DNA from: a virus
Reading direction: 5' to 3' (one strand)
Length of the DNA: 28,434 bases
Virus record (IMG/VR): IMGVR_UViG_3300031565_000267
Span: 1 to 28,434 of that record
In this document: positions 2,851-28,069 of the stretch, piece by piece
How the letters are laid out: every line of letters starts with the position of its first letter
How positions within the stretch are numbered: position 1 is the stretch's first letter
Made by a program: the position numbers and the translations under genes
Notes under the pieces: model-generated
Seen by the model: only the letters and a program-made list of their open reading frames with translations
What the model was told of the DNA's origin: nothing
Database searches by the model: none

Positions 2851-3087
2851 ATGAACGTCCACATACCCCTTTATACCTCTGAGAAGTTCGCCAAGCTCCT
2901 CGAAACGCACCCGAGAAGGGCCGATTTTCGCTCCAGGAACGCTTTTTTGAACGCTATCCTAGCTGGGTACTTCCAAGAGGAGTTTCCGTTGCGCTCAGGC
3001 AAGAATAAGCCTAAGGGCGATATGAAAGAGGATACCATAGCGCGTGATTTCCGCAATAAATACTTGACACCCCCGAAAAGTACATGA
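2851..3087 (+). CDS. Ribbon-helix-helix-like DNA-binding protein
   Basis: A 78-residue basic protein. The first 45 residues fit a ribbon-helix-helix pattern: a short polar/hydrophobic strand (VHIPLYTS), a helix (EKFAKLLETH), then a second helix after SRNAFLNAILAGYF. The tail is charged and probably flexible. Such proteins bind DNA as dimers and often repress phage promoters, so it is a candidate ligand for the dyads near 26307-26360, which is inference only. AAGGAA lies 6 bases before the ATG. Confidence 0.5.
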   Translation: MNVHIPLYTSEKFAKLLETHPRRADFRSRNAFLNAILAGYFQEEFPLRSGKNKPKGDMKEDTIARDFRNKYLTPPKST

Positions 3088-3093
3088 TAGTAT
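3064..3093 (+). promoter_or_regulatory. Sigma70-type promoter P2, twin of P1
   Basis: TTGACA (3064-3069), an 18-bp spacer and TAGTAT (3088-3093), followed by TAAGTATGGA exactly as at promoter P1. It overlaps the end of the preceding gene and drives the lipoprotein gene at 3111 and probably the genes after it. The GGAGGG ribosome site at 3101-3106 lies right at the transcript start. Confidence 0.8.
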
Positions 3094-3110
3094 TAAGTAT
3101 GGAGGGTATT

Positions 3111-3602
3111 ATGAAAAAGATCGTCTTTATTACAGTATTTACTTGGGTCTTCCTAAGCTGCGCGAGTAAGCCGGGGAATAGCCTGCGGTTGGATCTGCAG
3201 CTCAAGAACTACAACCAGTCCGAAGCCTCGCTCGTAGTCGAAGGCATGTATACGTCTCTGGATAAGCTCCGGGGGTGTACGTACTTGTCCACGCACTACC
3301 CCGTGGAATACAAGGAGCTGCAACTACTACTTTTGCTGCCTATTGTTGTAGAAAACGCGGACCACCCTAAGGAATACAAGTATTGTGCGAAAACGCGGAT
3401 GTTTGACCACCGGATTATCCTAGACGGTGCGCGGACCTCCTCTGAAGTATCCTGTCACTCCGTAGAACATACAATAGCGCATGAGGTATTACATGTTATT
3501 GGCTTCCAACACGGGGCGTCCTTGAACACGCTTATAATCGAATGCGGCCTACCTCCGAGAGAGGTACTAACCGCAGTTGACCCAAGAAGGAAAACGTGGT
3601 AA
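3111..3602 (+). CDS. Putative lipoprotein with metzincin zinc-protease motif
   Basis: A 163-residue protein with a signal peptide: basic start (MKKI), hydrophobic core, then FLSC, a slightly relaxed lipobox predicting lipidation at Cys 16. Residues 124-134 read HEVLHVIGFQH, matching the metzincin motif HExxHxxGxxH: three His to bind zinc and a catalytic Glu. It is therefore probably a membrane-anchored metallopeptidase outside the cytoplasm; substrate unknown. The domain is short for the family. ATG 3111 is chosen because of GGAGGG upstream and because earlier in-frame starts precede the transcription start. Possible roles are altering the host surface or excluding other phages (inference). 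Confidence 0.7.
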   Translation: MKKIVFITVFTWVFLSCASKPGNSLRLDLQLKNYNQSEASLVVEGMYTSLDKLRGCTYLSTHYPVEYKELQLLLLLPIVVENADHPKEYKYCAKTRMFDHRIILDGARTSSEVSCHSVEHTIAHEVLHVIGFQHGASLNTLIIECGLPPREVLTAVDPRRKTW

Positions 3603-4614: not shown

Positions 4615-5135
4615 AAATATTTAAGTGTCCATCCTGCGGAGACACCTCAGAATACAACGACGAGACTTGGGACTGCGCTTGTTTGGAGTGTGACCATAAG
4701 TTTTTAGAAATTATAGAAGGTAGCACGGGAGGCCGTAAAGATGACCAAGAAAAAATCAGAATGGAATTACTCCCCTGGCCCGCTCTTGAAGAAATTGCGC
4801 GAGTTCTCACATTCGGTGCTAAAAAATACGATCCCTGGAACTGGGCTAAAGGTATGGCGTGGGGAAGAATCCTCGGCGCAATTTATCGGCATTTGTCCTC
4901 CTGGATACGAGGCGAGCATAAAGATCCGGAAACGGGGATCTCCCACTTGGCACACGCTGGATGCTGTATTCTCTTCCTCCTCACATACGAACTTGAAAAG
5001 CTAGGAGAGGACGACAGGCATGACTATAGGAAAGAACGTTCTAAAAATGAGCACTCAGGAGCTACAGAATTTTGTTTCAACGCGCCGGCTTGCCCGTGCT
5101 CAAACTGTGTACAAAAGCCTAAAGAGAAAGTCTAA
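4611..5135 (+). CDS. Zinc-ribbon fused to dATP/dGTP diphosphohydrolase-like domain
   Basis: A 174-residue protein. Residues 6-27 hold a zinc ribbon (CPSC, then CLEC). Residues about 40-130 match the phage family named dATP/dGTP diphosphohydrolase, N-terminal (PF18909 / MazZ-like), with hallmarks ALEEIARVLTFGAKKYDPWNW, RHLSSWIRGE and GISHLAHAGCCILFL. The fold is the all-alpha NTP pyrophosphatase type. MazZ of 2-aminoadenine phages belongs here, but the family is also common in ordinary phages. A second Cys cluster (about 153-165) closes the protein and overlaps the next gene. Probable role: shaping the nucleotide pool. Confidence 0.75.
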   Translation: MKIFKCPSCGDTSEYNDETWDCACLECDHKFLEIIEGSTGGRKDDQEKIRMELLPWPALEEIARVLTFGAKKYDPWNWAKGMAWGRILGAIYRHLSSWIRGEHKDPETGISHLAHAGCCILFLLTYELEKLGEDDRHDYRKERSKNEHSGATEFCFNAPACPCSNCVQKPKEKV

Positions 5136-5235
5136 GGATCAGACCGTGGGCAAGATCGCAAAAGATTTGGGAATTCAAAGTGAGGAACTCATGGAACTCC
5201 TTGAGGTGGAGTTTGAAAGCGGAGGCAAGCTATGA
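5020..5235 (+). CDS. Small helix-turn-helix-like protein
   Basis: A 71-residue basic protein overlapping the preceding gene by 116 bases. The second half (TVGKIAKDLGIQSEELMELLE) looks like a helix-turn-helix, so DNA binding is plausible. ATG 5020 follows AGGAGAGG (5003-5010); ATG 5047 is an alternative with a weaker site. The stop overlaps the next start as ATGA. Confidence 0.5.
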   Translation: MTIGKNVLKMSTQELQNFVSTRRLARAQTVYKSLKRKSKDQTVGKIAKDLGIQSEELMELLEVEFESGGKL

Positions 5236-13155: not shown

Positions 13156-13873
13156 AATTCTTATTTACGACATTGAGACAAGCCCCATGCTCGCATGGAT
13201 TTGGCGAATCGGAAATAAAATCTCCGTCTCGCACTCACAGATCGAAGCACTAGGCGATATTATTTGCATCTGCTACAAGTGGGTAGGAGGCAAGGAGACG
13301 TACGCTTTGGACTGGGGAGCCAAACAGGACAGCACGCGGATGCTCAAGGATTTTGAGAAAGTTATCAAGGACGCGGATGTTGTCATTGCACACAATGGCG
13401 ACCGCTTTGATGTCAAGCATATTAACACCCAGAGACTTTTAAAAGGCTTGGACCCGCTGGCATGGCCAACCTCCGAGGACACGCTTAAAATGTTGCGCCG
13501 GCATTTTACCTTCCCTTGCTTCAAGCTTGATTTTCTCTCAGGTTTACTAACGGGCAGCGGCAAAGATAAAATGGAATTCCAAGACTGGATTAGCATAGTT
13601 CGTGACAAGGACGAAAAAGCCTTGGCTAAGATGATTAAGTATTGCAAGAAAGACGTGCGGCAGTTGGAGCAAGTTTTCTTGTCTACTAAAAAATACCTGA
13701 CTCCTATAGCGCATAGAGGTATTATTATCCAAGGAGACAGGGACTCCTGCCCTTCATGTGGATCTCTCGACAGAATAAAGAATGGGTCAAAAATAAAACG
13801 AACAGGCAGGCATCAGACATATCAATGTAAAGATTGCGGGCATGTATCTACAGACACGAGAAAGCTGCCCTAG
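13145..13873 (+). CDS. DEDD-family 3'-5' exonuclease with C-terminal zinc ribbon
   Basis: A 242-residue protein. The RNase H-like exonuclease domain (YprB/RNase_H_2 type) shows Asp 9-x-Glu 11 (YDIETS), Asp 89 (AHNGDRFD) and Asp 170 (YCKKDV), a complete DEDD catalytic set. Residues 202-231 form a zinc ribbon (CPSCGS, then CKDCG) resembling those of transposase and replication proteins. GTG 13145 is supported by GGGAG 7 bases upstream and overlaps the ATPase end. Its stop overlaps the stop of the minus-strand gene. A DNA or RNA end-processing role in replication is likely. Confidence 0.8.
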   Translation: MKPKILIYDIETSPMLAWIWRIGNKISVSHSQIEALGDIICICYKWVGGKETYALDWGAKQDSTRMLKDFEKVIKDADVVIAHNGDRFDVKHINTQRLLKGLDPLAWPTSEDTLKMLRRHFTFPCFKLDFLSGLLTGSGKDKMEFQDWISIVRDKDEKALAKMIKYCKKDVRQLEQVFLSTKKYLTPIAHRGIIIQGDRDSCPSCGSLDRIKNGSKIKRTGRHQTYQCKDCGHVSTDTRKLP

Positions 13874-14175
13874 TCTTTTACTTTTTTGTCTTTTTTCTCA
13901 CAGTGCCGGGTCATCTTCCCTCGACAATCCATGATTGACTGAAGATCCCGGTTCTGTCGATTCTTCCGATCATAACAATCACGCCGAAGCTCGTCCGTAT
14001 TGTGTAAATTATCCGTCTTAGTCTTAGGCACATTGCCGTCGTAGTATTCCTTGACAAATTGATTCAACCAAGATTTTTCATCCTCGGATAATTGGTCCAA
14101 GTAATCGAAATCATGCTGCCAGCGGTGATTCTTAGGGAGTCGTCTCCGGAACAGGTGATATTTGTGTCTTGACAT
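13870..14175 (-). CDS. Lone minus-strand conserved phage protein
   Basis: A 101-residue basic protein, the only clear leftward gene. Starting at 14175 it reads MSRHKYHLFRRRLPKNHRW, then a helical part (LSEDEKSWLNQFVKEYY) and an Arg/Asn-rich part (ELRRDCYDRKNRQNRD). I recall similar proteins beside terminase genes in other phages, without a known function. The longer frame up to 14367 is rejected because the promoter at 14206-14234 lies inside it. It converges with the exonuclease gene, sharing stop-codon bases, and its N-terminus overlaps the rightward -35 box. DNA binding is plausible. Confidence 0.75.
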   Translation of the reverse strand: MSRHKYHLFRRRLPKNHRWQHDFDYLDQLSEDEKSWLNQFVKEYYDGNVPKTKTDNLHNTDELRRDCYDRKNRQNRDLQSIMDCRGKMTRHCEKKDKKVKD

Positions 14176-14197
14176 ACCCTCTTCTTTTTGGTAAACT
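14169..14197 (+). promoter_or_regulatory. Rightward promoter for the late operon
   Basis: TTGACA (14169-14174), 17 bp, TAAACT (14192-14197, 4 of 6 matches). A better -10, TATACT at 14197-14202, would need a 22-bp spacer. The predicted start is near 14204, only a few bases from the leftward start, so both promoters cannot be occupied together. Confidence 0.5.
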
Positions 14198-14205
14198 ATA
14201 CTTAC

Positions 14206-14234
14206 AGTGTAACAAAAGTTCCGGAGGATGTCAA
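14206..14234 (-). promoter_or_regulatory. Leftward promoter for the minus-strand gene
   Basis: Read on the minus strand: TTGACA (14234-14229), 17 bp, TACACT (14211-14206). The start of transcription is predicted near 14199, leaving a leader of about 24 bases. The iteron-like copy (14209-14223) covers the -10 and spacer. Confidence 0.7.
14209..14223 (+). promoter_or_regulatory. Single copy of the 16-bp iteron (putative operator)
   Basis: GTAACAAAAGTTCCG matches 15 bases of the first and third tandem repeats at 26458-26521. It lies over the -10 and spacer of the leftward promoter and downstream of the rightward one, where a bound protein would affect both. Confidence 0.7.
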
Positions 14235-14236
14235 GT

Positions 14237-14524
14237 ATGGACCCAAAAACGCAATTAAAACAGACACTTAATTTGATACAAGGAATGATCCGCTTAATTA
14301 AGAGAGGGTTTTTTCCTGCAGGACCAAGCCAGTATGTGCAACCTGCGTTGCAGTTCTTAAACGCCACAGAAGCGCAGATTGTATTTAACCTAAAAAATTG
14401 GAAGGAAGCAGCAGATGTTCAAGCCGAAGATGGATCAGTTTCTAGCACCGGGGGCGACGTACCTGACGATAAGGAAAGTGGGGAACGGGAAGTGGGTAGC
14501 GGAGAAACTGTTCCTGAAGGATGA
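14237..14524 (+). CDS. Hypothetical protein, first gene of the late operon
   Basis: A 95-residue frame. ATG 14237 lies 9 bases after GGAGG (14223-14227); ATG 14228 touches that site and is unlikely. The first 60 residues form a convincing helical protein (QTLNLIQGMIRLIKRG..ATEAQIVFNLKNW). The last 35 are Gly/Asp/Ser-rich and overlap the next gene by 110 bases. Function unknown. Confidence 0.6.
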   Translation: MDPKTQLKQTLNLIQGMIRLIKRGFFPAGPSQYVQPALQFLNATEAQIVFNLKNWKEAADVQAEDGSVSSTGGDVPDDKESGEREVGSGETVPEG

Positions 14525-20311: not shown

Positions 20312-21427
20312 ATGTCGTTTAGTAACGTACCAAAAGATCCCGCCGAGGAAATTCTCTATACCCCAACGGCGCCTCTCACTACCGAGAACGTACAAGAAGC
20401 CTTGGATGAAGTTGCGGGTATTATTAGCTCAGGCATACCTCCTACTTCTAAGGTTGTAAACTACGCAGCTCTTCCTGCTCCCGGCTCCGTCCCAGCAGGC
20501 ACCACAAAGTACGTACAGAATCAAACCGGGGTGTACCTGCTAGGCACAAGGAAGTTGCGCGGTTGGTATGAATCCGACGGCGCAGCCTGGAAGTACGCAG
20601 GGGATAACTCTAGAGTATCAGCAGACTCCATTTACGATAATGCTACCTCGGGATTAACCGCGAATAACGTCCAAGCCGCCATTGATGAGGTCGAGGCAAG
20701 GGTTGACGCGAACGACGCCAAAGTCTCCGCGGATGGATCGGTAGCTACGCACTCCGATGTAACGTTAGCGGGCTCGGGTGCGATCATAACCGTAGCAGAA
20801 CGCGCCGACCTTCACACTCACACGAACAAAGCCCAACTTGATTTAGTAACCGACGGCGATCATGATGTCCGGACGGATAACCCGCACAGCGTTACAGCCG
20901 CCCAAGCGGGCGCAGACCCAACCGGCACAGCCGCGGGCCTAGTAGGGACGCACGAAACCGATCTTGCCTCTAATGCTAACCTGCTTGGCGCGTCCTTGGT
21001 AGGTATCGAAGACGCAGCGGGAAATTTTGTAGGCACGACCGTAGAAGCCGCGCTTGCTGAGGCAAAGGCAGTTCCTTACGTTGCAATAACTGCGGCGGGG
21101 CCCACGGTTACCACCTCTCCTACGTACGTAGTGCTTACGGGTATTACCACCACGCCTCCTGCAGGTACGTATGTTGCTATGTTTAGCACCACGGTTTTTA
21201 ATACTAATAACAATCGTCAAATGACTTTTGGAATACACGTCGCCGGAACTTTACAAGCCACGACGCAACGCACCGTTAGCAACAGTTCCGCAAGCGAAAC
21301 AAACTCCATTAATTGTCTGGGAATGGTAACCGTCAATGGTGCACAGGCCGTGGATGTTCGCTGGTTTTGCTCGGGAAATACCGCGACAGCAGGCAGGCAA
21401 ACTTTAATCCTTACTAAGGTGGCATAA
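20312..21427 (+). CDS. Tail fibre protein with ENVQEALDE-type repeats
   Basis: A 371-residue protein with three short repeats of the phage-fibre motif: LTTENVQEALDEV (about 22-34), LTANNVQAAIDEVEARV (about 113-130) and FVGTTVEAALAEA (about 238-250). These alpha-helical repeats link trimeric shaft segments in phage fibres. The middle has a His-rich TDGDHDVRTDNPH segment, and the C-terminus is beta-rich (a probable receptor-binding head). TAATG overlap with the next gene. Confidence 0.7.
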   Translation: MSFSNVPKDPAEEILYTPTAPLTTENVQEALDEVAGIISSGIPPTSKVVNYAALPAPGSVPAGTTKYVQNQTGVYLLGTRKLRGWYESDGAAWKYAGDNSRVSADSIYDNATSGLTANNVQAAIDEVEARVDANDAKVSADGSVATHSDVTLAGSGAIITVAERADLHTHTNKAQLDLVTDGDHDVRTDNPHSVTAAQAGADPTGTAAGLVGTHETDLASNANLLGASLVGIEDAAGNFVGTTVEAALAEAKAVPYVAITAAGPTVTTSPTYVVLTGITTTPPAGTYVAMFSTTVFNTNNNRQMTFGIHVAGTLQATTQRTVSNSSASETNSINCLGMVTVNGAQAVDVRWFCSGNTATAGRQTLILTKVA

Positions 21428-22477: not shown

Positions 22478-22581
22478 CAGATACTCTCAAGCGTATAAAA
22501 CGGATTTATGCGCTAAAACGTATTATGTGCGGTCTCTGATGTACTATAAGCCATCAGTTTCCAAGCTACAAGGAGTTTGTC
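22478..22581. other. Intergenic leader with hairpin before the scaffold gene
   Basis: GCGTATAAA (22491-22499) pairs with TTTATGCGC (22505-22513) with one G-U pair and a 5-base loop. No T-run follows. The AAGGAG ribosome site for the next gene lies about 10 bases before its ATG at 22582. No convincing promoter was found. Confidence 0.45.
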
Positions 22582-23496
22582 ATGTCCGAAGAAACCCCAG
22601 AAATATCTGAACCTATGGTCGAAATCGAAGACGCCCTCGAAGAGGATTCTGAGGAGCTAGTCGCCTCTCCTACCGGTGAGGGCGGTGACGCCGCCGCCGG
22701 CGAAGAAGAGGAAGAGACTCTCGAGGAAGAAACTGAACCTACTAAGTACAAGGTGAAGGTCGACGGCGAAGAGATCGAAGTAACCTTAGAGGATATGCAG
22801 AGGGACTATCAACTACGCCGCGCTTCTGATAAAAAATTCCAAGACGCCGCAGCTATTAAAGCTCAGGCCGAGGAATTCCTAGAAGCATTGAGAACAGATC
22901 CCCGCAAAGTCCTAGAACACCCAAACATCAACGCCGACATCCGAGCCCTTGCCGAGGAAATCTTATCCGAGCAATTAGAGGACGAGATGCTTGACCCCAA
23001 GGACAGGGAGATCAAAAAACTACAACGAGAGCTAGAGGCCAGAGAGGCAGAGAAGAAAGCGGAGGAAGATGCCAAGACTACTACGAAGCAAAAAGCAGAA
23101 GAGGCCGAGTTACTTGCCGGGTATGAAAAACAAATAGACACCGCGCTGTCTACCTCTGGGCTTCCTAACACATCCTTTACTATAGACCGCATGGCGTATT
23201 ACATGCAACAGGCAGTCCGCTCCGGGTATGACCTCACTGCTGCTGACGTAGTACCCTTGGTAAAAGAAGACTACATAAATGACTTCAAGAAATTCTTCGC
23301 AGGTAGCGACGACAAGGTAATCGCCGAAATCCTCGGCGGCCCCGCAATGAAGAAGATCCGAAAGATGGACCTGAGCACCTTAAAGGATCCAAAGGGAAAA
23401 ACCCCCGCGAATCAACCAGATGTAAAGCCCCGGGCTAAGGGCGAGAAGCAAACTTTCGAGGACTTCTTCGAAGCCTTGAAGGATGACATGGATTAA
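22582..23496 (+). CDS. Capsid scaffolding protein
   Basis: A 304-residue protein. The first 55 residues are extremely acidic (runs of Glu), residues 56-75 contain a short domain (KYKVKVDGEEIEVTLED), then a long charged coiled coil (about 140-175), and a helical C-terminus with basic patches likely to bind the capsid. This composition and its place immediately before the putative major capsid gene are typical of scaffolds, which guide procapsid assembly and leave or are degraded. ATG 22582 follows AAGGAG. Confidence 0.8.
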   Translation: MSEETPEISEPMVEIEDALEEDSEELVASPTGEGGDAAAGEEEEETLEEETEPTKYKVKVDGEEIEVTLEDMQRDYQLRRASDKKFQDAAAIKAQAEEFLEALRTDPRKVLEHPNINADIRALAEEILSEQLEDEMLDPKDREIKKLQRELEAREAEKKAEEDAKTTTKQKAEEAELLAGYEKQIDTALSTSGLPNTSFTIDRMAYYMQQAVRSGYDLTAADVVPLVKEDYINDFKKFFAGSDDKVIAEILGGPAMKKIRKMDLSTLKDPKGKTPANQPDVKPRAKGEKQTFEDFFEALKDDMD

Positions 23497-23507
23497 CAGA
23501 TAATTAC

Positions 23508-23543
23508 GAGAGCGTAGGACTCTGCGGATATCCTACCCTCTTT
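23508..23543 (+). terminator. Attenuator-like hairpin before the capsid gene
   Basis: GAGAG, C, GTAGGA pairs with TCCTAC, C, CTCTT (one C-C mismatch), giving an 11-bp stem with an 11-base loop, followed by only TTT. A weak terminator or processing site separating scaffold from capsid mRNA is likely. Confidence 0.5.
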
Positions 23544-23613
23544 GGCTGCTTGACCGATGCACCCGCTACCGAACAACTGTCAGGAATGTTTAACTTTTTA
23601 AGGAGACTCTGTA

Positions 23614-24867
23614 ATGGGACAAGAAGTTACTGTAAAGAGTCAACTTGATGGTCTATATAAGGAGGTCTACGGTGATAAAATCGAAGACCTCATTCCTGAT
23701 GTAGGTAGACTAGTCAAGAAGATTTCTTTCCGAGAAGCTGAAAAATTAGGCGAGGCGTTTAACGTGCCTGTCATCGTTAGTGATGAACAAGGCGCCACTT
23801 ACGCTGGGCCAGAAGAAGATGCCTTCGACCTCGATCCACCCGAGGCAATGACCACTAAGAACGCGAAAGTCAAGGGTTCTCAGATCCTTATGCGTGCTGC
23901 GATTGGCTACAAAGCCGCCGCTGCTGCTGTTAAGGGCGGGAAAAAAGCCTTTGTTAACGCTACTGAATTGGTTATCCGCCGGCTCATGAATTCGATCACT
24001 AAGCGTGTCGAAGCCATGTTGCTCTACGGCGGCGACGGTCTGGGCGAAGTTACCTCCTCAGTCAATCAAGGCGCTACCGAAACAACGCTTACTATTGATC
24101 CTAAAACCTGGGCACCTGGCCTATGGGTAGGCAGTCAGAAAGCTAACCTAGAAATCTGGGACGAAACTGGCCCAATCAAGGTCGCTGACGTTCAAGTAGG
24201 TAGGGTTGATTGTAAGGCAGGCACTTTGAATGTTACCGGCCTAGCTGCGCAGATCACGGCTCTTGACGCCGCGCTCCCTGGCACGCTAACCGTGTACTTC
24301 AAAACGGCTCGTGGTAAAGAAGCTCTGGGCCTCGCTCAGATCATCAAAACCTCCGGCACTCTGTTTGGTATTAATAACAACGAATTCGACCTTTTTAAAG
24401 GCCAAGAGTTTGACGCCCTAGGCGCCGCGCTCTCCTTTGACAAAGTAACCGACGCTGTTGTCTGTGCTGTCAATTATGGCTTGGATGAGAACGTAACGTG
24501 TCTCGTCAGTCCTAAAACGTGGCAATCACTAAACAAGGACGAAGCTGCTCTGAGACAATACGACGCATCCTTCAAGGATGACGCCAAAAAAGGTAGCCGC
24601 TCTATCGTATATCAAGGCCAAGCCGGCTTGATCGAAATTGAGGCTCACCCAATGGTGAAAGAGGGCGAGGCTTTTATCGTCCCCATGCGTAGACTGAAAC
24701 GTGTTGGTGCATACGAAATTAGCATGAAGACCCCAGGTCACGGCTCAGAGATGTTTAGGCATCTTGAAAGCAAAGCGGCCTTTGAGCTTCGCGCTTATAC
24801 GGACCAGGCGCTCTTTACTGAGCACCCAAGTCATCTCGTGCGCATTAGCAATATCGTTAATCCGTAA
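23614..24867 (+). CDS. Major capsid protein (probable HK97 fold)
   Basis: A 417-residue protein directly after the scaffold gene, with a strong ribosome site (AAGGAG) as expected for the most abundant virion protein. It begins with a short N-arm, then a segment like an HK97 E-loop (GATYAGPEEDAFDLDPPEA), a long spine-like helix (TELVIRRLMNSITKRVEAM), a beta-rich insert, and a C-terminal part (AFIVPMRRLKRVGAYEI..ELRAYTDQALF) of the kind seen in capsid proteins of this fold. Assignment rests on context and pattern, not on a named family. Confidence 0.75.
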   Translation: MGQEVTVKSQLDGLYKEVYGDKIEDLIPDVGRLVKKISFREAEKLGEAFNVPVIVSDEQGATYAGPEEDAFDLDPPEAMTTKNAKVKGSQILMRAAIGYKAAAAAVKGGKKAFVNATELVIRRLMNSITKRVEAMLLYGGDGLGEVTSSVNQGATETTLTIDPKTWAPGLWVGSQKANLEIWDETGPIKVADVQVGRVDCKAGTLNVTGLAAQITALDAALPGTLTVYFKTARGKEALGLAQIIKTSGTLFGINNNEFDLFKGQEFDALGAALSFDKVTDAVVCAVNYGLDENVTCLVSPKTWQSLNKDEAALRQYDASFKDDAKKGSRSIVYQGQAGLIEIEAHPMVKEGEAFIVPMRRLKRVGAYEISMKTPGHGSEMFRHLESKAAFELRAYTDQALFTEHPSHLVRISNIVNP

Positions 24868-24876
24868 ACCTCCGAT

Positions 24877-24905
24877 GGGGAGTAGGGCTTAGTGTCCTAC
24901 TCCCC
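24877..24905 (+). terminator. Strong hairpin after the capsid gene
   Basis: GGGGAGTAGG (24877-24886) and CCTACTCCCC (24896-24905) form a perfect 10-bp stem with a 9-base loop. No T-run follows; the next gene starts 10 bases later. It may stabilise capsid mRNA or lower translation of the fibre gene rather than terminate. Confidence 0.55.
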
Positions 24906-24914
24906 TGGAACCCT

Positions 24915-26042
24915 ATGCCTAAGCCACTTACCATAGATGAAGTAGTTTATAACTACCCAGAGATCGACGACTTAGAATGGGGACCAACCGCGTCTCAATG
25001 GGCTGATGCAGTTAGTACGCTCCTGGAAATGCTACGAGGACCAACGGCTCCTATAGCACTCTCAGGTATTATTCGTTTAGGTACGGATGATAAAATCTCC
25101 TGGCGCAACACCTTGGACACGTTGGACGCGTCCTTGTTTATTGACAGCTCTGACCGCCTCATTTATGACGACGGCGTAGCACAGAAGGATCTAGGACTCA
25201 CCGGCGCCTCCGGTAATGTACAGCACTTAAGTCCTAGTACGGATCATGCACTTGCAAGGTTCGATGGTACTATGGGCACGGTGTTACAAAACTCCGGCGC
25301 AATTCTTGATGACTCGGACAATCTTACGGGCCTTACCACCTTGGGCGCCACCACTGTTACGGCCACCACGGTTGGCGCTACGGATGTCAACACTACGAAT
25401 ATTAACAGCCTGGACTTTCTAAAGGTTCTTCCCCCGATCGGAAGTATTATTCCTTTCTACGACTTCAACGGGGCGCAGAGTTTTGACGCCGCTTACTGGG
25501 CAGTTTGTGATGGCTCCGCGGCGACAGTCGGCGGAACTCCAGAGACTCTTCCGGACTTAAGCGGCAGGTACTTAGTTGGCTTCGGTACGGATGGTGGCGG
25601 GGATAATGCCTCCGCCGCTTGGGCTACCGCCGCGGTTGGTAATGCGCTGCACGAAATCAGTTTAATACACGGTCACACCGTCGACGCTCATGCTCACACA
25701 AACTCAACTCATACTCACGGACCGGGAACGCTGCAGTTTCAAGTAGCAAACTTCACCGGAGGCAACAGCGGCGTACTGCAGATGTACCAAGCGGGAGGAG
25801 GCATAGATACCGTGCATGTTCTAACTCAAAGAGCTGGTGCAGATGGTAATGTCAACTTATGGGCCTCCAGCTTTGTCCTCGGCGCAGAGCAGTATTATAC
25901 TAAAGGTGGTCTTAATGCCACAGCTTCCGACGGCGGAGCAGGGACAGGCAACACAAGCCCCGGAACCTCAACTACTTTATCCGCCACACAAAGCATCCAA
26001 CCTCGGAGCATCCAAGTTCGCTACATCATGAGGATTAAGTAA
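24915..26042 (+). CDS. Tail-collar-domain fibre protein
   Basis: A 375-residue fibre. The N-terminal part includes a common phage-fibre motif (DHALARFDGTMGTVLQNSG, about 110-128) and a low-complexity Thr-rich stretch (about 140-165). Residues about 173-215 match the phage tail collar domain: PIGSIIPFYDF, then AYWAVCDGS and LPDLSGRYLVGF. A His-rich segment (GHTVDAHAHTNSTHTHG, about 254-270), probably metal-binding, and the closing QPRSIQVRYIMRIK are also typical. The ribosome site is weak and sits next to the hairpin above, suggesting lower expression than capsid. TAATG overlap with the next gene. Confidence 0.8.
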   Translation: MPKPLTIDEVVYNYPEIDDLEWGPTASQWADAVSTLLEMLRGPTAPIALSGIIRLGTDDKISWRNTLDTLDASLFIDSSDRLIYDDGVAQKDLGLTGASGNVQHLSPSTDHALARFDGTMGTVLQNSGAILDDSDNLTGLTTLGATTVTATTVGATDVNTTNINSLDFLKVLPPIGSIIPFYDFNGAQSFDAAYWAVCDGSAATVGGTPETLPDLSGRYLVGFGTDGGGDNASAAWATAAVGNALHEISLIHGHTVDAHAHTNSTHTHGPGTLQFQVANFTGGNSGVLQMYQAGGGIDTVHVLTQRAGADGNVNLWASSFVLGAEQYYTKGGLNATASDGGAGTGNTSPGTSTTLSATQSIQPRSIQVRYIMRIK

Positions 26043-26306: not shown

Positions 26307-26360
26307 TTGGTGAAGTATGCGTCACCAAACTTTCTATTTATGGTGAACTCTATGTCACCA
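26307..26360. repeat. Two TGGTGA-N8-TCACCA dyads
   Basis: TTGGTGA-N8-TCACCAA at 26307-26328 and TGGTGA-N8-TCACCA at 26341-26360 have the same arms and spacer length but different spacer bases. The dyads begin 33 bp apart, about three helical turns. This fits dimeric regulator sites. Confidence 0.7.
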
Positions 26361-26381: not shown

Positions 26382-26411
26382 TATTATAATCTATTATAAT
26401 CTATTATAATC
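26382..26411. repeat. Three perfect tandem copies of TATTATAATC
   Basis: Three exact 10-bp units lie head to tail in a strongly AT-rich stretch. One unit per helical turn would put the same face outward in each, and the sequence would melt easily. Confidence 0.85.
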
Positions 26412-26457
26412 TAATTTTTGGTATTATTAATAGTACGCAAAAAAAAATCTCGCCGAA

Positions 26458-26521
26458 GTAACAAAAGTTCCGTGTAATTAAAGTTCCCTGTAACAAAAGT
26501 TCCGTGTAAGATAAGTACCCG
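26458..26521 (+). repeat. Four contiguous 16-bp iterons
   Basis: Units begin at 26458, 26474, 26490 and 26506 with no gaps. Units 1 and 3 are GTAACAAAAGTTCCGT; unit 2 is GTAATTAAAGTTCCCT; unit 4 is GTAAGATAAGTACCCG. A partly inverted copy (GGAACTAAAGTTAC) follows at 26521-26534. The same motif recurs at 14209-14223. Confidence 0.9.
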
Positions 26522-26585
26522 GAACTAAAGTTACTTTCTTATCAATACATTATATATAGCACCAAAAAATACTTGAAAATAAAAC

Positions 26586-26613
26586 TTGCGCTTTTTTCTC
26601 AGGTATGTATAAT
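26586..26613 (+). promoter_or_regulatory. Sigma70-type promoter of the right-hand operon
   Basis: TTGCGC (26586-26591), 16 bp, TATAAT (26608-26613), then AATAAGTAGGAGG containing the ribosome site of the next gene. The iterons lie about 65 bp upstream of the -35 box. Confidence 0.7.
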
Positions 26614-26630: not shown

Positions 26631-26855
26631 ATGATTAATAAAACAAAAGAAAAGATTTTAGAAGTAGTAAAAGATGAAGTTGATATTTGTAATCGAAATT
26701 ATACTCGCGCTTTTGACCACTATTTTTCCCTAGCAGGAAAGGTTAGCAAGAGAACTAAAGCATATAAGGCCGCGGTGGAAGAATGGCGGCAAAGTTGCTC
26801 ATGGTTAATCGAGGCGCAGTCTATACTTGCAAAAATTGAGTTGCTAGATGTTTGA
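26631..26855 (+). CDS. Hypothetical helical protein
   Basis: A 74-residue, lysine-rich, helical protein, first gene after the non-coding hub. AGGAGG lies 6 bases upstream of ATG 26631. Position directly beside iterons makes a regulatory or replication role conceivable, but no motif supports it. Confidence 0.6.
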   Translation: MINKTKEKILEVVKDEVDICNRNYTRAFDHYFSLAGKVSKRTKAYKAAVEEWRQSCSWLIEAQSILAKIELLDV

Positions 26856-26914: not shown

Positions 26915-27325
26915 ATGAAATATTTCACAATACTAACAGACGAAGGGCCGATGTTTGATACCGGCGCAAGTAAATGGTTTTTCCTTGAGCAGCATTTGAT
27001 TGACAAGGGCGTCACGTTTCAAAAAGTAGAAGGATTTTATGTCAATGCACATAATAAAAAAGCAAAAGAAAATGCTTTTTTAATTTCCTACTCTGATACC
27101 CAAGCGGCCAAGATGCAAAAACAATGCGAATCCTTAGCGCGGCAATTAGGTCAAGAAGCTGTGCTACATATTGAAAATGCCTCGCGAGCCATATTGTCAT
27201 ATGTCAATGGCTCGGATAATAATAAATGGCATGTTTCAAGAAGTATAGAATACTGGGATTATCAACCGCCATTAGATCGCGGATTTACCAAAATTGATAA
27301 TACTTTTCTTGTGGTGACGTTCTAA
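26915..27325 (+). CDS. Hypothetical protein
   Basis: A 136-residue alpha/beta protein after GGGAG. Its centre (NAFLISYSDTQAAKMQKQCESLARQLGQEAVLHI, split by motif into strand-helix-strand) suggests a compact fold, but I do not recognise the family with confidence. Its TAA overlaps the next ATG. Confidence 0.6.
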   Translation: MKYFTILTDEGPMFDTGASKWFFLEQHLIDKGVTFQKVEGFYVNAHNKKAKENAFLISYSDTQAAKMQKQCESLARQLGQEAVLHIENASRAILSYVNGSDNNKWHVSRSIEYWDYQPPLDRGFTKIDNTFLVVTF

Positions 27326-27409: not shown

Positions 27410-28069
27410 ATGAGGCACTATAGACAATGGGTGATGAAGTATAAAAAACAGTATAGCGAATTTCTAGCGAATTCATGCCTTGACGAAAAAGGCCGACGGG
27501 ATCCAATGAGAGTCTACAACCGCGCCTTGTTCGCCTTGCTATCCGTCAACACATCTTTTGACATTACAGAAAAGGCATATGCCGATATGAAAGGAAAATA
27601 TTGGACAGGACAAAAACGAATCATGCATAGATATATGAGGCACGGCATTCACTACGCGTACGCTCGCGGTGGCTACTTGCATGACTTTACAAAAGCATAT
27701 AAGAAAAACGCCGCGGTATTTCTAAAGCAATGCGACGAATCCTGGAATGAATACCGACGCCGTTTAGTGCGTGAAGTGAAAGGCTTGGGGTTTATAAAGA
27801 TATCCTTTTTCATAACCTTAGTCTATCCCGCCGCCGATCTATGCTGTATAGACCGCTGGATCCTTCGGTGCTTGGGTTTACATGCTAACAATATGCCGCG
27901 CCTCTCTAACCAAATTTTTTACCAATCTCTAGAAAATATCATGCGTCAAGAGTCTAAAATTTTGGGCGTCGATATGTTTCAGTATCAATGGGCGATATGG
28001 GACTGCATCCGATTTGATACCGGCAATGATAAGGGTTTAAACCCCATGGCAAGCTTGAATAATTCATAG
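27410..28069 (+). CDS. HhH-GPD-like DNA glycosylase (probable)
   Basis: A 219-residue protein. Residues 41-50 (FALLSVNTSF) resemble the LLSxxT start of helix-hairpin-helix DNA glycosylases; residues 123-140 (VKGLGFIKISFFITLV) form the hairpin with Gly-Leu-Gly; and Asp 148 in CIDRWILRCLGL occupies the catalytic position of the family (usually (V/I)DxHxxR). It would flip and excise bases or bind altered DNA in the cytoplasm. A second lysine catalytic residue cannot be placed with certainty. Located in the right-hand operon, expressed apart from the virion genes. Confidence 0.55.
   Translation: MRHYRQWVMKYKKQYSEFLANSCLDEKGRRDPMRVYNRALFALLSVNTSFDITEKAYADMKGKYWTGQKRIMHRYMRHGIHYAYARGGYLHDFTKAYKKNAAVFLKQCDESWNEYRRRLVREVKGLGFIKISFFITLVYPAADLCCIDRWILRCLGLHANNMPRLSNQIFYQSLENIMRQESKILGVDMFQYQWAIWDCIRFDTGNDKGLNPMASLNNS

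Follow-up and report, generated by a model that had tools for sequence, protein, structure and literature searches.

A repeated dyad over the face-to-face promoters of a late-gene switch and at a distant hub of a phage genome as a candidate operator of one dimeric regulator

Introduction

The operators of temperate phages such as lambda and 434 (OR/OL), PY54 and phiKO2 are several similar dyads about 16-18 bp apart across opposing promoters, and a second operator cluster lies elsewhere in the genome. A similar arrangement was found in the stretch of DNA analysed here (the window), one linear virus record of 28,434 bases without a terminal repeat. The window is probably incomplete, since tail genes of a relative, G001, have no counterpart in it. 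Its promoters face each other, whereas those of lambdoid switches diverge, and its switch is found where the late genes begin, next to a small lone gene. Unlike in the lambdoid systems, no Xre-type (HTH_3) repressor gene was found in the window or in G001. The stoperators of mycobacteriophages are many scattered copies in one orientation, whereas the copies in the window occur at two places only and one of them is inverted.

Three other described elements are also comparable. The motif of HcpR2, of the Crp/Fnr family, was published as GTAACnnnnGTTAC (PMC1274295); the unit in the window is like it in core and geometry, and that in G001 is identical. The boxes of the window, however, are in a phage, stand five in a row at 16 bp and have GGAAC as one arm in every strong site. 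In T4-like cyanophages, NtcA sites (GTA-N8-TAC) are thought to serve the phages for timing (PMC3037559). They too are Crp/Fnr-type boxes in a phage, and a perfect box of the present kind contains GTA-N8-TAC, but they are scattered upstream of many genes whereas ours are clustered at two places, and by its genes the window is not a cyanophage. Finally, iteron origins (lambda ori, R6K, pSC101) have short direct repeats beside an AT-rich stretch, as the hub of the window does; the window differs in its dyad units, in a copy over the late promoter and in having no recognised initiator or hub DnaA box. A literature search for phage switches with face-to-face promoters, or with iterons at a late promoter, found nothing specific.

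Results and Discussion

The repeat unit

The sequence GTAACAAAAGTTCC occurs in exact copies at 14209, 26458 and 26490. By chance, 1.4e-4 exact copies are expected per window and 3e-7 per 66-bp promoter region. Allowing up to three mismatches, ten matches were found in the window, compared with a mean of 2.5 and a largest number of 7 in 100 dinucleotide shuffles. The unit is an imperfect 14-bp dyad, and the consensus of its strong sites is G(T/G)AAC-W4-GTT(A/C)C, with only A/T in the spacer. Four of the five arm pairs are complementary in four of the six sites, three at 26474 and two at 26506. An opposite dyad, GTTNC-N2-GTAAC, arises at the joints when the units repeat with a 2-base gap; the distant copy at 14209, being single, shows the N4 form to be the unit. 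This dyad form resembles the operator of a dimeric regulator and not an asymmetric iteron. With a matrix built from the window's own sites, the listed sites scored 13.6-19.8, and the next best (12.8 at 25440 and 9.7 at 20327) were both coding. Thus neither the matrix nor the mismatch scan of the window revealed many scattered copies away from promoters, the observation that had been named as speaking against a regulatory role.

The hub

The larger group of sites lies in a non-coding stretch, the hub, with the following features.

26458-26471, plus strand: hub operator 1, GTAACAAAAGTTCC, exact
26474-26487, plus strand: hub operator 2, GTAATTAAAGTTCC, 2 mismatches
26490-26503, plus strand: hub operator 3, GTAACAAAAGTTCC, exact
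26506-26519, plus strand: hub operator 4, GTAAGATAAGTACC, weak, with 3 mismatches and 2/5 arm pairs
26521-26534, minus strand: hub operator 5, inverted, GGAACTAAAGTTAC (on the minus strand GTAACTTTAGTTCC), from the mismatch scan and the matrix
26382-26413, plus strand: AT-rich 10-bp repeat beside the array, TATTATAATC x3.2, found by TRF and absent from the hub of G001
26586-26613, plus strand: candidate promoter of the gene after the hub, TTGCGC-N16-TATAAT, with a weak -35, read from the sequence
26631-26855, plus strand: first gene after the hub, 74 aa, without a family match

The hub therefore holds five 14-bp sites, four of them direct (26458-26519, 16-bp pitch) and the fifth inverted. TRF reported the 16-bp tandem array (score 83) independently of motif matching. 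The first-pass annotation had described four contiguous 16-bp repeats at 26458-26521 that match the distant element. The repeat and its 16-bp spacing are real and four direct copies are present, but only two of these match the 14209 copy exactly, while the copies at 26474 and 26506 have diverged by 2 and 3 bases, and the inverted fifth copy at 26521-26534 had been overlooked. Transcription from the candidate promoter, which the promoter scan did not report, would be expected to start about 92-155 bp downstream of the hub operators. Since they overlap no consensus promoter, repression at the hub is not obvious.

Other features were observed in and near the hub. The most over-represented 9-mer of the window, GGTATTATT, has 8 copies, all on the plus strand (1547, 8259, 13718, 20417, 25065, 26296, 26377 and 26420), where about 0.1 is expected; three of them are in the non-coding hub, and it is not over-represented in G001. 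Two GGTGA-N8-TCACC dyads (26309-26326 and 26342-26359), 33 bp apart, are possibly a second kind of operator. Shortly 3' of the hub are an S-adenosylmethionine lyase-like gene (26915-27325; Pfam 7e-7) and an Ogg-HhH glycosylase-like gene (27410-28069).

The late switch

The distant copy lies among the following features.

14169-14197, plus strand: late promoter, TTGACA-N17-TAAACT, consensus match, conserved in G001
14206-14234, minus strand: promoter of the lone gene, TTGACA-N17-TACACT, consensus match, conserved in G001
14209-14222, plus strand: late-switch operator, GTAACAAAAGTTCC, exact, homologous to site 17208 of G001
14191-14205, no strand assigned: putative degenerate second operator, GTAAACTATACTTAC, over the plus -10 and aligned with operator 17191 of G001
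13870-14175, minus strand: lone gene, of a widespread family of small phage proteins
14228-14524, plus strand: first gene of the late operon, syntenic with G001

The start of the first late gene is more likely the ATG at 14237, which has an SD at the proper distance. The two promoters overlap face to face, with outer edges 66 bp apart. With only 8 bp between their -10 boxes, the two could not be occupied by RNA polymerase at the same time. The operator at 14209 covers part of the spacer and the -10 of the minus promoter as well as sequence transcribed early from the plus promoter. Hence, as proposed earlier, the distant element lies over both promoter-like elements between the lone gene and the late operon. 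It had been taken for a single element; the copy at 14209 is indeed the only exact one there, but a degenerate partner appears to lie at 14191-14205, opposite the first operator of the relative.

A relative with sites at both places

A portal-based search yielded G001 (IMGVR_UViG_3300043447_000765; L013), whose coordinates are given for the reverse complement of the record. It is 38,688 bp long, probably the complete genome in view of a 127-bp terminal repeat. Identity with the window is 57% for the portal, 54% for the terminase and 48-50% for the lone gene. At its switch, TTGACA is present on both strands 65 bp apart in the same 65-bp module, and the two -10 boxes are covered by a pair of perfect GTAAC-W4-GTTAC sites at a spacing of 17 bp.

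A matrix was built from the six sites of the window alone and applied to G001 without using the sites of the latter. The two switch sites ranked first (17191, score 19.8) and second (17208, 18.4), followed by 479 (16.3) and 6062 (16.2). Among 200 Markov-simulated sequences as long as G001, none scored above 19.4 at its best site or above 15.1 at its second-best. Site 479 is in a non-coding stretch between a leftward scaffold operon and rightward early genes. Site 6062 is coding, inside the exonuclease gene, and transcription from a TTGACT promoter would be expected to start about 85 bp downstream of it. One of three sites at the hub of G001 is strong; two weaker resemblances, at 460 and 550, were picked out post hoc and left out of the count. 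We infer that the 479 region is the equivalent of the window's hub, as both are intergenic before rightward genes, although the structural genes are arranged differently. Since G001 has sites at both hub and switch, the link between the two places appears conserved, and the full arrangement is known in two phages, the window and G001. The presence of the site at both places in an independent relative also makes it probable that one protein serves both, as had been suggested.

Searches of viral contigs with single proteins found no close relatives, and a search of them for the exact array pattern gave no match. DNA similarity of the hub and the switch module to known phages was not convincing in any case, and a major-capsid search of bacterial genomes had no match. 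Distant relatives sharing the terminase or polymerase were considered and set aside; they are without the module, and their occasional dyads are coding or isolated.

Proposed mechanism

The sequence itself shows the sites, that they are dyads, that they lie over promoter-like hexamers and that the relative has them at both places. From this we propose, with moderate confidence, that the repeat is the operator of one dimeric regulator that denies RNA polymerase access to the two switch promoters and accumulates at the hub; protein binding, repression, promoter activity and a common protein for the two places are the predicted parts of this proposal. A dimer bound across the -10 boxes would keep RNA polymerase off both face-to-face promoters. 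When the operator is free, one promoter at a time would fire, transcribing either the leftward lone gene or the rightward late operon. At the five hub sites the regulator would be gathered in front of the promoter from which the next gene is read, and there it may control or sense transcription. At the switch, repression is more likely than activation because the sites overlap the -10 boxes. Activation is nevertheless possible, since a tandem box of this kind adjoins crp genes in two bacterial genomes. Points that weaken the proposal are the poor hub site 4, the single strong site at the hub of G001, the coding position of site 6062 and the observation of the full arrangement in two phages only.

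If correct, the proposal would describe a compact late-gene switch in phages without a known regulator, in which two overlapping face-to-face promoters have one common operator set and the switch is tied to a second operator cluster, the hub.

Candidate regulators encoded by the phage

The two readings that follow, a phage protein and a host regulator, are nested within the operator explanation. Phages usually encode their own switch proteins. That the operators are read by a small phage protein of unrecognised type, for example the product of 5020-5235, of the lone gene or of the RHH-like 2851-3087, is plausible, though we hold it only tentatively. Such a binder would be a switch protein missed by current family libraries. 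The first candidate is the following.

5020-5235, plus strand: 71-aa HTH-like protein, candidate binder, 33% conserved in G001, weak

Its homolog in G001 lies immediately before the exonuclease gene, and its C-terminal half is HTH-like, but family and structure matches of the phage candidates are weak; the structure model of the 5020-5235 product has moderate confidence and no match. No HTH_Crp_2, HTH_3 or RHH_1 match was obtained in the window and G001, and the remaining DNA-binding families were covered through individual proteins compared with Pfam.

The family of the lone gene (motif DYDYLDKLS..ELxWLNxF..EY...RNNxRNRD) was found in 11 further phage contigs (L056-L066), often of larger phages and including contigs of 33-86 kb. 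No Pfam or PHROG family was matched by more than one member. None of the 11 contigs has such a site beside the gene, and the model of the lone-gene product consists of two helices only, with no structural match in the PDB. The lone-gene product is hence a weak binder candidate, and the family was set aside as the binder.

The same box in other phages

Viral contigs were scanned for tandem boxes with A/T spacers, as in the window and G001, a restriction that would miss boxes with other spacers; nine contigs, G001 among them, matched. In three other phage lineages, tandem pairs or arrays have boxes 17-19 bp apart. One lineage (L125, L126, L128 and L132; 63-65% GC) has a box pair against a ribosome-binding site, and the gene behind it may encode a scaffold. 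Its location in one member is:

L125, 2442-2473: box pair against the ribosome-binding site

L127 and L133 form one low-GC lineage with three perfect copies and one partial copy at a 17-bp pitch (L127, 4179-4226). L131 has about four copies (3069-3160) upstream of a gp157/ERF operon. The pair in L130 is inside a coding gene, is probably due to chance and was rejected as an operator.

By blastp and pair profiles, the array-bearing lineages had no regulator-like gene in common with the window and G001, and no homolog of the phage candidates was found in them, which speaks against these candidates. A box that recurs in lineages without similar regulator-like genes is as expected of an operator.

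In repeated sequence of the Silvanigrella phage CP017838.1 (L006), GTAACGGTAGTTAC is found three times, with a spacer that is not A/T and not directly beside the lone-gene homolog of that phage. In the same record, the palindrome TATAGTAAC-N4-GTTACTATA is present at 25444, 34506 and 37793 in repeated segments, and a 3.3-kb duplication covers 22520-25802 and 31582-34864.

A possible host regulator of the Crp/Fnr family

The binding protein had been expected to be new, since neither a repressor nor an initiator was recognised. This expectation was not borne out as a necessity, because the box is the published HcpR2 motif and adjoins crp genes of Flavobacteriaceae, so that a host protein could bind it. 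In a core test against HcpR2, the boxes of G001 were exact, and the strong sites of the window differed by one arm base. The tandem pattern was matched six times in 84,980 scanned genomes of bacteria and archaea; L142, L144 and L145 are among these matches. In two Flavobacteriaceae, the tandem box, apparently part of a Crp/Fnr regulon, has a crp-type gene on one side and a sulphur-transport gene on the other:

L143, 3595-3625: tandem GTAAC-W4-GTTAC
L146, 991-1021: tandem GTAAC-W4-GTTAC

Exact single boxes outnumbered a reversed control 7:0 and 10:0 in these two genomes, and 6:3 in a third.

A host Crp/Fnr-family (HcpR2-like) regulator that reads the operators and is used by the phage to time its late genes is thus a candidate to be taken seriously, though a rather unlikely one. 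This reading gains from the shared HcpR2 core, from the flavobacterial boxes, from the cyanophage precedent of NtcA (PMC3037559), from the lack of any Crp_2, HTH_3 or RHH_1 match in G001, a probably complete genome, and from the unrelated phages that have the box in common but no regulator-like gene. Against it, the promoters and SD sequences of the window look proteobacterial and not bacteroidetal. The closest named relative infects Silvanigrella and is too distant to settle the host. In addition, Crp dimers would fit tightly at a pitch of 16 bp, the strong sites of the window are consistently asymmetric (GTAAC/GGAAC), and the flavobacterial search pattern admitted A/T spacers only. If a host regulator does bind, the phage would read host physiology before committing to its late genes. 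A broader form, to which we give slightly less credence still, is that the phage places both the late-gene start and the hub under host Crp/Fnr through the tandem GTAAC-W4-GTTAC-type box, and that unrelated phages have converged on this box; the late genes would then be gated by the redox or nitrosative state of the host.

A replication origin or RNA element as less likely readings

The repeats had been called iterons. The hub could in principle be an iteron-type replication origin with an adjoining unwinding element, the copy at 14209 being a side effect or an autoregulatory site, and its direct repeats do adjoin an 82-86% AT stretch with the TATTATAATC x3 repeat. However, the hub units are dyads at a 16-bp pitch, the window has no DnaA-like box closer than 10 kb to the hub, the GC skew does not turn at the hub and no initiator gene was recognised. 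The hub of G001 has no AT-rich stretch and a single strong site, against two at the late promoter of that phage. The term did not hold in its replication sense, and we regard an origin of this kind as improbable. A role as a small RNA hairpin that governs how the first late gene is translated, suggested by the ribosome-binding sites that the 14209 copy and the pair of the G021 lineage abut, is highly improbable, as the hub copies are upstream of a candidate promoter, hub site 4 is unable to form a stem, the sites of G001 do not adjoin an SD and Rfam has no match at the hub.

At the other end of the window, DnaA-box-like TTATCCATA is present at 34-42 and 121-129 in opposite orientations, flanking a promoter at 87. 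The early-type promoters at 86-126 and 3063-3103 have in common a 41-bp stretch, TTGACA...CATGNTAGTATTAAGTATGGA, that is 78% identical.
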